Shown here one piece after another: positions 40,893-44,688 of a DNA stretch of 44,848 bases. Each line of letters starts with the position of its first letter. Positions within the stretch are counted from its first letter, which is position 1. Under the pieces are notes generated by a model, which made no database searches, was not told where the DNA came from, and worked only from the letters and a program-made list of their open reading frames with translations. The stretch comes from Wenjunlia vitaminophila DSM 41686. GTDB lineage: Bacteria; Actinomycetota; Actinomycetes; Streptomycetales; Streptomycetaceae. The stretch covers positions 142-44,989 of the forward strand of contig NZ_KB904682.1 in NCBI RefSeq assembly GCF_000380165.1, written 5' to 3'. The position numbers and the translations under genes were made by a program.

Positions 40893-41519
40893 TCACTCCA
40901 CCCGGGTGGCCGGGTGGCGGTCGCCGCGCAGCCTGACGTCCGTGGGCAGCACGGGCAGCCCGACGGAGGCCCGGGCGTCGGCGATCTGCTCGTGGTGCAG
41001 GCGTTCCACGATCGACGCGGGCCTGGCGTGCGGGGCCAGGGTGAGGATCATCCTGGCCCCGGGGACGCCCCGGCGGGTGTGCAGCGTCACCGTCGCCCCG
41101 TCCACCCCGTCCATCCGGCGGGTCTCCACCTCCAGGGCGTCCTCCAGCGCCCGGCCCCGCAGCCAGGCGGAGCCGGCGTCCTCCCGGTCGGGGTCCCCGA
41201 AGTGACCGAGCAGGACCCGGCCGAGCCGACGGCCGTGGAGCTGCGCCAGCAGCCACCACAGGCTCAGCAGCACCAGCAGCCCCAGGGCGGTGAAGACCAC
41301 GGGCCACCACCAGCCCTCGTCCCGGTAGCGGGTGCGGTCGGCCTCGCTCAGCACCGGCTGGTCCGGCCGGTCCAGCGGCCACCACGACGGCAGGGTGAAG
41401 TTCCAGTGCCGCTCCAGGTCCAGGCCGCTCACCAGCACCAGCAGCCCTCCGGCGAGCAGCACCAGACCGGCCAGGGCCAACAACACCCGGTTGACCAGGG
41501 TGCGTGCGGACCAGCTCAT
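40893..41519 (-). CDS. AmaP-like Asp23 membrane anchor protein
   Basis: 208 residues. There are two membrane segments, about 10-32 (VNRVLLALAGLVLLAGGLLVLVSG) and about 70-92 (WWWPVVFTALGLLVLLSLWWLLAQL), then a cytoplasmic domain (GSAWLRGRALEDALEVETRRMDGVDGATVTLHTRRG...). This resembles the C-terminal half of AmaP, which tethers Asp23 to the membrane in Staphylococcus. It is the last gene of the six-gene Asp23 operon; its ATG shares ATGA with the stop of the DUF6286 gene. Confidence 0.85.
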   Translation of the reverse strand: MSWSARTLVNRVLLALAGLVLLAGGLLVLVSGLDLERHWNFTLPSWWPLDRPDQPVLSEADRTRYRDEGWWWPVVFTALGLLVLLSLWWLLAQLHGRRLGRVLLGHFGDPDREDAGSAWLRGRALEDALEVETRRMDGVDGATVTLHTRRGVPGARMILTLAPHARPASIVERLHHEQIADARASVGLPVLPTDVRLRGDRHPATRVE

Positions 41520-42121
41520 CCGCCGTTCACCTCCCGCAGGACCACGGTCAGTCGAGGCGGCCGGGTCAGGCCGAGCCCGGTCACCTCACCCGGGAGCAGT
41601 GCCTCCAGTTCCCGGCGCACCTCCGCGGGATCACGGAAGTGGACATCGACGCGGACCTTGATCCGCCGTCGGCCGGTCTTCACTCGGACCCCACGCACCC
41701 CGGACACCCGCAGCACGTCGTCCCGCAGCACCAGCGCGACCGCCTTGCGGTCGAGGCCGGCCCGCATGGCGGGGGCGGGGGTGTTCATCGGCAGGACCGC
41801 CCGCAGTCCCGGGCTGAGCGCCAGCCACAACAGCCACAGGCCGAGCACGGCCGCGACCGCCGCGCCGAGCAGCACCCACGGGTCGTCGAGGTGACGGGAC
41901 GCCAGTTGGTCGGCGAGTTCGCGCCGCCACCGCCCGGCCCTGCGGTGGGCGCCGTGGACCGCGACGGTGTCGTAGAGCAGTGCGCCGGACGCCACCAGCA
42001 CCACCGCGGCGACCACGGCCGACGGAATCCGCCGCGAGGACCAGAACCGGTGCGGGCCGCGCACCGGGGCCGGCTCGGGGCGCTCAGCCTCTGCGGCCGG
42101 CACGACCTGGGTCTGCGTCAC
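41516..42121 (-). CDS. DUF6286-type membrane protein of the Asp23 cluster
   Basis: 201 residues: a polar N-terminus, two helices (about 33-52, IPSAVVAAVVLVASGALLYD, and about 82-106, WVLLGAAVAAVLGLWLLWLAL), and a C-terminal alpha/beta domain (AVALVLRDDVLRVSGVRGVRVKTGRRRIKVRVDVHFRDPAEV) like that of AmaP and Asp23 proteins. It starts at GTG 42121, overlapping the Asp23 stop (GTGA), and ends overlapping amaP. Probable second membrane anchor for Asp23-type proteins. Confidence 0.82.
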   Translation of the reverse strand: MTQTQVVPAAEAERPEPAPVRGPHRFWSSRRIPSAVVAAVVLVASGALLYDTVAVHGAHRRAGRWRRELADQLASRHLDDPWVLLGAAVAAVLGLWLLWLALSPGLRAVLPMNTPAPAMRAGLDRKAVALVLRDDVLRVSGVRGVRVKTGRRRIKVRVDVHFRDPAEVRRELEALLPGEVTGLGLTRPPRLTVVLREVNGG

Positions 42122-42510
42122 TGCGCCCTCCCCTGCGACTCGTCGAGCCCCGCCCTCGGATGCAGTCGCTCCACCTGGACCGTCACCTCGGGCACCGCCA
42201 TGCCGGTGAGCACCCGGACCCGCTCGACCACTTCGCCGCGCAGCGCGGCGCAGACCGCGGCGACGTCGCAGGGGTAGGCGAGTTCCACGGCGAGGCGGAT
42301 CCGGGCGCTGCCCGCGCGGACGGCGACCGAGGCGTGCGGTGCCCGGCCGGTGTGCGGCCGGCCCTGTTGCGCGGTGGTGTCCAACGCCTCCCTGGCGGCC
42401 TGGCCGGCGACCTTGGCCACCACCCGGTCGGCGATCCTGAGGGCTCCGCGATCCGCGGCGGGCACGCGTTCCAGGACCTGGCCGCCGGTGGCGGAGGGCG
42501 GCACCGTCAC
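42118..42510 (-). CDS. Asp23/Gls24 family protein, short copy
   Basis: 130 residues. An Asp23-like core runs from about 22: ALRIADRVVAKVAGQAAREAL, ASVAVRAGSARIRLAVELAYPCDVAAVCAALRGEVVERVRVLTGMAVPEVTVQVERL. This matches the alpha/beta pattern of the family (start helix IADRVVAKVA, then alternating strands, RVRVLTGM helix and VTVQVE). GTG at 42510 shares GTGA with the stop of the upstream 60-residue gene. Second Asp23 paralogue of the operon. Confidence 0.85.
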   Translation of the reverse strand: MTVPPSATGGQVLERVPAADRGALRIADRVVAKVAGQAAREALDTTAQQGRPHTGRAPHASVAVRAGSARIRLAVELAYPCDVAAVCAALRGEVVERVRVLTGMAVPEVTVQVERLHPRAGLDESQGRAQ

Positions 42511-42689
42511 CGCCGCCGGTTGCGGGGACGGAAGAAGTCGCCCGGCTCGAGGTCGCCGTCGAGGAAGCGACCAGCGATGAAGCCGACGGCGCCGAGCGCC
42601 GCCACCAGCAGGAAGGCCCCGAAGCCGCCGAAGTACCCGGCGAATCCCAGGGCCATGCCGACCACCAGGCCGATGACGGCCATGCTCAT
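42507..42689 (-). CDS. Small membrane protein (DUF2273-like) of the Asp23 cluster
   Basis: 60 residues with two hydrophobic segments: MSMAVIGLVVGMALGFAGYF and GAFLLVAALGAVGFIAGRF, followed by DGDLEPGDFFRPRNRRR. Small proteins of this form accompany Asp23 genes in Gram-positives. It ends overlapping the short Asp23 gene by 4 bases. Confidence 0.85.
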   Translation of the reverse strand: MSMAVIGLVVGMALGFAGYFGGFGAFLLVAALGAVGFIAGRFLDGDLEPGDFFRPRNRRR

Positions 42690-42748
42690 GGTGCCTCCTT
42701 GTGTTCAGCGGCGTTGCGGTCCATGGTCCCGCGGGTCGCCGTGGCCAG

Positions 42749-43096
42749 TCACCGCACCCTGGTCCGACGTCTGCGGCGCAGCGCCGCGGCCAGGGCCCTG
42801 CCGCAGCGCACCGGCCAGGAACCACGGCGGTAGGCGGTCACCCGGGGTTCGCCGGGTACCGGCCCCCTGCCACGGGGACCCGCCCGGGAGCCGGTGGCGT
42901 GGTCCTCCCCGGCCGGGCTCGGGCCGGGGACCCGGGCCGGCTCGGCGAGCACCGCCCGCCAGTGGCGCAGCCCGGCCACGAACAGCTCCGGGTCGCCGCC
43001 GCGGTCGGGGTGACAGTCGCGCACGAACGCCCGGTACTCCTGGCGCCTGCGGGCTCGTTCCGCCGTGCCGTCGGGGCCGGGCGCCCTGCCCGTCAC
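42749..43096 (-). CDS. Small HPD-motif (mini J-domain-like) protein in the Asp23 operon
   Basis: 115 residues. Residues 15-50 read ARRRQEYRAFVRDCHPDRGG then DPELFVAGLRHWRAVL, which looks like helix II, the HPD tripeptide (29-31) and helix III of a DnaJ-type domain, with no clear helix I. HPDxGGD also occurs in Tim14/Pam18 and viral T-antigen J-domains. The rest is Pro/Gly/Arg-rich with a very basic C-terminus (RRRRRTRVR). It starts at GTG 43096, 33 bases after the large Asp23 gene, and precedes the small membrane gene by 59 bases. HPD alone is short, so a chance match cannot be excluded. Confidence 0.72.
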   Translation of the reverse strand: MTGRAPGPDGTAERARRRQEYRAFVRDCHPDRGGDPELFVAGLRHWRAVLAEPARVPGPSPAGEDHATGSRAGPRGRGPVPGEPRVTAYRRGSWPVRCGRALAAALRRRRRTRVR

Positions 43097-43129: not shown

Positions 43130-43624
43130 CTACTGGATCCGGGGCTCGGGCTCCTCTTCCTCCTCGTCGGGGAGCTTGACGTCGCCGACGGCGATGTTGA
43201 CCTCCACGACCTCAAGACCGGTCATCCGTTCGACCGCGCTGATCACATTCTCCCGCACGGCACGTGCCACATCAGCGATGGCCACTCCGTAGTCCACCAC
43301 GATGTCCAGGTCGAGGGCGGTCTGCACCTCTCCCACCTCGGCCTTGACGCCCCGGGTGACGCTGGGCTTGCCGCCGGGCACCCGATCCCGGACTGCGCCG
43401 AACGTCCGTGCGAAACCGGTGCCCATGGCATGCACACCGACCACGTCGCGGGCCGCCATTCCGGCGATCTTCTCCACCACTCCGTCGGAGATCGTCGTCT
43501 TCCCCCGTGCCGCGGGCGCCGCCAGGGTGCGCCTGGCGGTGCTCACCGCCTTGCCCTCGCCGGCGCCCTCCCTGGCCTCGGCCGTGGGGTTCTCGTTGCC
43601 GCCTCGATACCCGATGTCCGTCAT
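43130..43624 (-). CDS. Asp23/Gls24 family envelope stress response protein
   Basis: 164 residues. A variable 50-residue N-terminus precedes the Asp23 domain: GKTTISDGVVEKIAGMAARDVVGVHAMGTGFARTFGAVRDRVPGG, then VKAEVGEVQTALDLDIVVDYGVAIADVARAVRENVISAVERMTGLEVVEVNIAVGDVKLPDEEEEEPEPRIQ. These are the standard family motifs. Asp23 in Staphylococcus is an abundant membrane-associated protein linked to cell-envelope homeostasis. ATG at 43624; the upstream open frame is not family-like. First gene of the operon, divergent from the gene at 43819. Confidence 0.93.
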   Translation of the reverse strand: MTDIGYRGGNENPTAEAREGAGEGKAVSTARRTLAAPAARGKTTISDGVVEKIAGMAARDVVGVHAMGTGFARTFGAVRDRVPGGKPSVTRGVKAEVGEVQTALDLDIVVDYGVAIADVARAVRENVISAVERMTGLEVVEVNIAVGDVKLPDEEEEEPEPRIQ

Positions 43625-43818
43625 GAGCCCAGTTCCTTTCCCAGCGCTTGCGTCAACCCTATGGTCGTCTGCCCACAACCGCCCGGGTTATTGGGCAGGA
43701 CGACGACGGCCGTTCGAGTGGACCGGACACCGGGCGGACCGGGCAGGATGGGCACCATGCGACCGTGCCACCAGCCACCGGAACCCCAGACCCGTCGACG
43801 CCGTGGGAGGGAGCGCCC

Positions 43819-44688
43819 GTGAGCGAGCAGCCCGGACCGAAGCCCAACGGGGCGACCGGAGGCCTGACCGCGGCGGTGCGGTACCAGGTGGGACTGGGCC
43901 AATTCCTTCCCCTGGGCGAGGCCGGGGACGACGCCTGGATCGCCGAGGCTGCGGCGGCCTCCCTACTGCGCGCGGCGGGGGAGGCGGTGGACGGCGTGTG
44001 GGTCACGCGGATGCGGGTGCGCCCGGACGACGGCGGCGGGCCGCCACCCTCGGCGGCGCCCGTCCCCGCGGGCGCGGCGCCCCGGGTCCCGCTCCGGGTG
44101 TGCGTCGATCTGGAGGTGGCGCTGGACGCCCTGCACCGGAGTTCCCTGCCCGACCTCACCGACCAGGTGCGGCTGGCGCTGCTCCGGGGCGCGGACACCT
44201 GGGTGGGCCTGCGGGTCTCCGCGGTGGACCTGTCGGTGGTGAACCTGCGGGACCGCCCCTCCCCCGGGGACCCGCACGGCGCCCCGGGGACGCCGGACGG
44301 CGACGGGCCCGCGGACGGCGACACTGCGGGAGCGGCCCTGGTCGGACGGGGAGACGAGGGACCGGGGCCGGGGCCCGAGGGGCGCGCCGCCCGTGCGGCG
44401 CTCGCGGTGCCGGGCGTCGCCGGCCTGGACGCCGGGCTCGGCGGTCTGCTCCCGGGCCGGGTACCCGGTGTCCGGATCGAGGACGACGGGGTACTGGTGC
44501 ACCTCCGGGTCGCCCCGGGGCACCGCCCGCTCGACGTGGCCCGGGCGGTCCGTGGCCCGGTCGCCGCGGCGGTGCCGGACGGGGACGCCCACCCGGGTCG
44601 GGTGCCGGTCACCGTGGTGGTCACCGGGGTCCGCGAGCCCGACACGGGGGCGGGCGGCTCGGGGACGGGCGGAACCAGCACCGGATAG
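43819..44688 (+). CDS. Asp23-cluster-associated protein with two similar modules
   Basis: 289 residues, soluble. Residues about 14-140 (AAVRYQVGLGQFLPLGEAGDDAWIAEAAAASLLRAAGEAVDGVWVTRMRV...LRVCVDLEVALD...LTDQVRLALLRGADTWVGLRVSAVDLSVVNL) and about 190-275 (ALAVPGVAGLDAGLGGL...GVRIEDDGVLVHLRVAPGHRPLDVARAVRGPVAAAVPDG...VPVTVVVTGV) both show the helix-strand pattern of Asp23-type domains, joined by a Pro/Gly/Asp linker. I recall similar streptomycete genes beside Asp23 clusters under the misleading name 'nucleopolyhedrovirus P10 family'. GTG at 43819 has GGGAGG 8 bases upstream. Confidence 0.8.
   Translation: MSEQPGPKPNGATGGLTAAVRYQVGLGQFLPLGEAGDDAWIAEAAAASLLRAAGEAVDGVWVTRMRVRPDDGGGPPPSAAPVPAGAAPRVPLRVCVDLEVALDALHRSSLPDLTDQVRLALLRGADTWVGLRVSAVDLSVVNLRDRPSPGDPHGAPGTPDGDGPADGDTAGAALVGRGDEGPGPGPEGRAARAALAVPGVAGLDAGLGGLLPGRVPGVRIEDDGVLVHLRVAPGHRPLDVARAVRGPVAAAVPDGDAHPGRVPVTVVVTGVREPDTGAGGSGTGGTSTG

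Follow-up and report, generated by a model that had tools for sequence, protein, structure and literature searches.

In Actinomycetota, the genes of the Asp23 envelope system are linked to a gene for a truncated J-protein, a linkage found repeatedly but patchily over the phylum. In the window (the whole 44,848-nucleotide stretch analyzed here), the gene lies at 42749..43096 on the minus strand, begins with a GTG codon and encodes a protein of 115 amino acids; its annotation is based on homologues, an AlphaFold2 model and dN/dS. As judged from sequence comparisons, the protein almost certainly descends from a J-domain. With moderate confidence, we regard it as a minimal J-protein dedicated to the Asp23 envelope system, with the task of bringing DnaK to the Asp23 layer; both the co-chaperone role and the recruitment to this layer are what we infer. 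Engagement of DnaK by the J-protein is quite likely, action at the Asp23 layer is probable, and the Asp23 polymer may perhaps be the client.

The ORF at 43096..42749 contains YRAFVRDCHPDRGG followed by DPELFVAGLRHWRAVL, as the earlier note on this DNA had described, and GGAGGAAGG is located directly upstream of the start codon. From the N terminus, the parts of the protein are helix II, the HPD loop, helix III, a linker, a basic C-terminal helix and the tail TRVR. The J-like hairpin (42944..43075, minus strand; residues 8 to 51) consists in the AlphaFold2 model of helix II (residues 8 to 28), HPDRGGD (residues 29 to 35) and helix III (residues 36 to 51). The basic helix predicted at residues 94 to 110 and the C-terminal RVR tail, which is common to operon proteins, extend over 42752..42817 on the same strand. 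Two further points raised earlier also hold, in that helix I is absent from both the ORF sequence and the model, and the C terminus is very basic, being arginine rich in a protein with a net charge of +15. No G/F or zinc region was seen in the window protein, nor was there a confident prediction of a membrane helix. We also considered a membrane-binding amphipathic C-terminal helix, but its moment of 0.41 was equaled or exceeded by 464 of 5,000 shuffles, so this idea is not significant and is unsupported.

The dN/dS ratio (Nei-Gojobori) was below 1 in all nine J gene pairs (range, 0.13 to 0.53) and was 0.34 between the window gene and its nearest relative, L002. Together with homologues that carry the same core in the same slot across many genera, this range argues that the ORF is more than a chance reading frame; a spurious ORF was ruled out by conservation, position and dN/dS.

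The J gene is part of a same-strand string in the order Asp23a, J, small transmembrane (TM) protein, Asp23b, DUF6286 protein and AmaP-like protein. Its placement between Asp23 and membrane-anchor genes, proposed in the earlier note, is borne out by Pfam and NCBIfam matches of the neighbors. Asp23a, the first Asp23-family protein, is encoded at 43130..43678 (minus strand; PF03780, E = 3.6e-29), with the true start possibly inside the ORF. Past the J gene, and likewise on the minus strand, are a 60-amino-acid, DUF2273-like membrane protein found in the same slot in relatives (42507..42689; PF10031, E = 0.022, below the gathering score); Asp23b, the second Asp23-family protein, whose start codon is uncertain and whose domain runs to the stop (42118..42450; PF03780, E = 2.8e-8, matching residues 126 to 219 of ORF 42118..42825); a DUF6286 protein (41516..42121; PF19803, E = 1.9e-28); and an AmaP-like membrane anchor (40893..41519; NF033218, 51.3 bits versus a cutoff of 55). 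Asp23, DUF2273-type and AmaP-type genes, the marks of an Asp23 operon, are thus joined in one string, with the DUF2273 and AmaP matches falling below curated cutoffs. The J gene starts ∼34 bp past the stop of the Asp23a ORF and ends ∼60 bp ahead of the 60-amino-acid TM gene. A scan for promoters and terminators gave no promoter-like site, and the single terminator-like site that it found, a weak one, falls within the string. Beside the operon, a divergent plus-strand ORF (43648-44688) apparently contains Asp23-like half domains when inspected by eye; the only Pfam match of this ORF was to DUF6286 (E = 0.032).

We investigated the distribution of the J gene at several taxonomic depths. Clear homologues (E ≤ 1e-8) were present in 8 of the 61 genomes of the relatives set (the genome itself, one congener, three genomes of genus g2 and three of g5); these close homologues keep HPDRGGDP and adjoin Asp23 and TM genes. 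Run on 391 genomes of the order, a sample in which one genus dominates among the matches listed, a profile yielded three matches at E ≤ 0.001, namely, the genome itself, G037 and G269. The gene string of G037 is the same as that of the window. The G269 match was rejected as a J homologue, as two in-frame stops interrupt the matched stretch, which belongs to a different gene. When 296 genomes of the phylum were searched, 28 matched, many with ordinary J-domain proteins; short ORFs beside TM and Asp23 genes were found at L035, L038, L040, L041, L042, L053 and L058, with only the downstream TM and Asp23 genes detected within the locus at L041, L042 and L058.

A scan of named contigs with an HPD pattern gave at least 71 loci, 37 of which contain Asp23. 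All 37 are from Actinomycetota by title, and they include Embleya, Streptomyces sp. SID3343, Pseudonocardia, Frankia, Actinokineospora, Nakamurella, Dactylosporangium and Actinomadura as well as metagenome-assembled genomes of Nocardioidaceae, Pseudonocardiales and unplaced Actinomycetota. Among the matches listed, Asp23a precedes and a TM gene follows the J gene in 37/37 of these loci, with DUF6286 downstream in 34/37 and AmaP in 32/37; the five incomplete strings are loci of 3.4 to 5.5 kb that end early. The 34 loci without Asp23 among the matches listed comprise 28 from other phyla and six from Actinomycetota (L081, L108, L110, L116, L119 and L120), with L081 having AmaP without Asp23 within a short locus.

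To make the selection of loci independent of HPD, we also ran an Asp23a profile on 197 genomes of the class, which at E ≤ 1e-20 found 86 places in 69 genomes, including the window. A J gene was present at 18 of the 86 places (the window included), corresponding to 18/69 genomes and 8/14 families, as tallied with a loose motif (PD preceded by any residue and followed by any residue and GG), with the false hits L170 and L174 excluded and L214 (the gene also listed as L053) included by eye. The remaining 68 places include L219, which is uninformative on J because contig ends fall inside loci L201 and L219. In this survey, genus g9 contributed 25 places, none of which showed J (at four of these, L194, L218, L234 and L239, no TM gene was seen after Asp23a), and J was likewise not seen in f86 or f88. 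Many genomes manage the Asp23 system without J, which counts against the reading put forward above, and J is thus an optional but recurrent member of the string.

At places without J, Asp23a mostly leads straight into the TM gene or is separated from it by a gap with a half-size Asp23-like ORF, while some places have a lone Asp23 gene. The gap before the TM gene is at least 150 bp at 28 J-less places, and a pattern for the half-size Asp23-like ORF matched at 25 of them, with no match to this pattern in the gaps at L195, L204 and L232. Many actinomycete operons (e.g., L168, L182 and L233) have this half-size ORF, with its YLPGRRVxGV-type motif, after Asp23a and ahead of the J or TM gene.

The HPD motif, whose loss from a homologue in the same position would speak against a J-protein, was retained throughout. 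Searching with a profile in which the HPD columns were masked (X), built from members originally found by unmasked profiles, we recovered 76 loci in Asp23 context. Merging repeats leaves 59 distinct genes (16 from Asp23-anchored loci), with HPD present in 59/59, as it is in 18/18 J genes of the Asp23a survey; no case of a J gene having lost HPD was found in either set of loci. HPD is also present in 62/62 nonredundant J domains from Asp23 context, and HPDxGG is invariant in the 48 members of alignment A4.

Parts of PMC13012618 and PMC1906734 describe Y25, K26, H33, D35 and F47 as DnaK-contact residues, the former from simulations in which J-domain residues contact the nucleotide-binding domain or linker of Hsp70 and the latter from genetic tests in which the contact residues matter. 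In the window J-protein, the equivalents of Y25, K26 and F47 (Escherichia coli DnaJ numbering) are Y21, R22 and F39. Across A4, the K26 equivalent is arginine in 47/48 members, the F47 equivalent is phenylalanine in 45/48, and the Y25 equivalent is Y, F or W in 34/48. The F47 equivalent is located 9 to 10 residues past the histidine, compared with 14 in E. coli DnaJ, because the loop is shorter. The window protein has HPD between two helices, in both its sequence and its model, and a basic helix II with the Hsp70-contact residues, as J-domain proteins do.

AlphaFold2 predicted the antiparallel helix II/III hairpin expected of a J-domain, placing helices at residues 8 to 28 and 36 to 51 with HPD at 29 to 31 between them, and a further helix at 94 to 110 (mean pLDDT, 74.6; pTM, 0.44; residues 11 to 50 at 90 to 96). 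The suggested likeness to Tim14/Pam18 is tentative: of five weak Foldseek matches to the window model, Tim14 (2guz_A) was the first, at E = 2.8, whereas with VIA-align 2 it came last of seven (Z = 3.6), behind six unrelated chains. The lack of a confident structure match is explained by the size of the two-helix hairpin, which is too small to decide by fold. Tim14 has a short HPDxGG loop, as does the window J-protein, which differs in having no confidently predicted membrane helix and in being encoded in a bacterial envelope operon. The model of L107, a relative with helix I (helices at 3 to 7, 15 to 29, 37 to 52 and 69 to 78), gave 83 Foldseek matches at E ≤ 10, the best at 0.017. Nearly all of the best 50 of these 83 have J-domain titles, and a few are chains from large complexes; the Foldseek probability against J-domains, including DnaK-bound 5nro_B, reached 1.00. 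At E = 0.001, Foldseek found no match for either model.

Profile comparisons gave evidence on descent. Against the window J-protein itself, Pfam and NCBIfam returned no family at E ≤ 10, PF00226 included, and yet PF00226 matched 11 of the 48 A4 members at E ≤ 0.1 (best, 4.5e-8). The A4 profile had 33 matches at E ≤ 1 among PDB sequences, 30 of which are J-domains by name or fold (8iuf_E6 by fold); the other three are a selenoprotein W-related protein, a zinc finger protein and cs074A. With a profile of the 36 members without helix I, seven PDB matches were obtained, five of them to J-domains (best E = 0.009, a marginal value) and the others to the same selenoprotein W-related protein as before and to a ribosome hibernation factor. 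Aligned with E. coli DnaJ by hhalign, A4 gave an E value of 2.2e-4 over 39 columns (probability, 45) and A6 one of 0.0024 over 27 columns (probability, 12).

Helix I is kept in L035, L038, L040, L041, L042, L058 and L107. It is absent from the window protein and the inspected Actinomycetes members, many of which start ∼14 to 26 codons before HPD. As the PDB matches of the helix-I-less members are marginal, their link to J-domains leans on the helix-I-bearing relatives; these relatives, with their Pfam DnaJ matches, make J-domain descent well supported. In the simplest history, helix I was probably lost secondarily from a complete J-domain. Alanine at Y7 or L10 of helix I caused partial or complete loss, respectively, in the J-domains tested in the relevant part of PMC1906734, which, with helix I missing here, suggests that the hairpin alone may be unstable or partner dependent.

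Compared with J-domain proteins (DnaJ/Hsp40, class C; PF00226), the window protein shares helix II, HPD, helix III, the basic nature of helix II and the contact residues. It differs from them, as do many actinomycete members, in lacking helix I, and it has its own basic C terminus with an R[VIL]x tail and an Asp23 operon setting. Since neither the ORF nor the model has a helix I to pack on helices II and III and Pfam finds no match, we file the protein as a truncated J-domain derivative, which by inference works like a class C J-protein.

In the window, the C-terminal tails of Asp23a, the AmaP-like protein and J are PRIQ, TRVE and TRVR, respectively (C termini at 43133, 40896 and 42752). In the Asp23-anchored set, the R[VIL]x tail is found in 78/85 Asp23a, 44/70 AmaP, 21/65 Asp23b and 8/17 J proteins and is absent from TM proteins (0/74) and rare among DUF6286 proteins (1/68) and background ORFs (3/164, picked by codon-position GC rather than by annotation). 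Counted as distinct proteins over both sets, the tail is present in 111/127 Asp23a, 68/99 AmaP, 39/60 J, 51/100 Asp23b, 1/106 DUF6286 and 0/110 TM proteins; the rows of these counts are related genomes and not independent. Because operons lacking J have the tail as well and 21/60 J proteins do not, the tail is no specific mark of the J link and instead belongs to the Asp23 layer as a whole.

In Staphylococcus aureus, Asp23 lines the membrane via AmaP and polymerizes into filaments, according to parts of PMC6954212. In the mechanism that we favor, the hairpin would bind ATP-bound DnaK and trigger ATP hydrolysis, while the basic C terminus and R[VIL]x tail would address the J-protein to the membrane-bound Asp23/AmaP layer. 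DnaK would then work on Asp23 polymers, an arrangement resembling the delivery of Hsc70 to clathrin coats by auxilin. A bolder version, which we hold tentatively and consider rather doubtful, is that of a bacterial auxilin counterpart, in which a hairpin-only J-domain would bring DnaK to the membrane-lining Asp23 polymer and drive its remodeling, the R[VIL]x tail carried by Asp23, AmaP and J would be a docking code that assembles the layer, and partner binding would make up for helix I.

The family could also consist of J-derived scaffolds that no longer stimulate DnaK, with the hairpin serving as an Asp23- or AmaP-binding module in the manner of Tim16/Pam16, in which the J-like fold is kept and no such activity is known. 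That many members are without helix I fits such a loss of activity, but conservation across a divergent family extends to HPD, the arginine of helix II and the phenylalanine of helix III, and HPD is lost in Tim16-type proteins, making this explanation unlikely. Improbable as well is a true co-chaperone that has a client other than the Asp23 polymer and uses DnaK for the insertion or folding of TM, DUF6286 or AmaP-like proteins or for the membrane generally. The J gene directly precedes the TM gene in 37/37 named loci (among the matches listed), and its product has a basic C terminus, with a hydrophobic stretch in Pseudonocardia; against this, many J-less operons also contain TM and DUF6286 genes, and the common tail ties J to Asp23 and AmaP, not to the TM or DUF6286 proteins. 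The charge and the arginine-rich C terminus described above would suit a small basic protein that binds nucleic acids or polyanions, with HPD merely structural, yet the helix-I-bearing relatives that match PF00226 share the same operon context, and we regard such a binding protein as very improbable.

For the favored reading, a J-protein that brings DnaK to the Asp23 layer, auxilin (DNAJC6) offers a working analogy only, being a J-protein through which Hsp70 reaches a single membrane-associated coat (part of PMC13254874). The relation as shown is limited to the J hairpin, and coat disassembly would apply to the Asp23 J-protein by analogy alone. Like the S. aureus system, the window combines Asp23 and an AmaP membrane anchor in one operon (part of PMC6954212). 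The actinobacterial string goes further, with DUF6286, additional Asp23 copies and a J gene that only some lineages have; the available part of PMC6954212 mentions no J-protein for S. aureus. Among the literature matches listed, none describes an Asp23-tied J-protein, and the catalogue of bacterial J-proteins by Barriot et al. (2020), cited in the part of PMC13254874 available, may list such proteins. A recurrent operon J-protein provides a testable handle on the function of the Asp23 layer, which PMC6954212 treats as a question, and on its turnover, with DnaK as a candidate actor; the common C-terminal tail provides a second handle, on layer assembly. The family also lends itself to testing how small a portion of a J-domain suffices to work on Hsp70.

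Two other kinds of J-like proteins were seen during the searches. On two contigs of genome G269 (L033 and L034), a different small protein ends in a J-like hairpin (HPDRGGSSEAF in L033), and neither locus contains an Asp23 match. Family f25 has a separate, recurrent J-protein type (L036, L037, L039, L051 and L054), with open frames of ∼250 to 370 amino acids in which the J-domain is N-terminal and precedes a GRPSRP- or GRPSTP-like segment.
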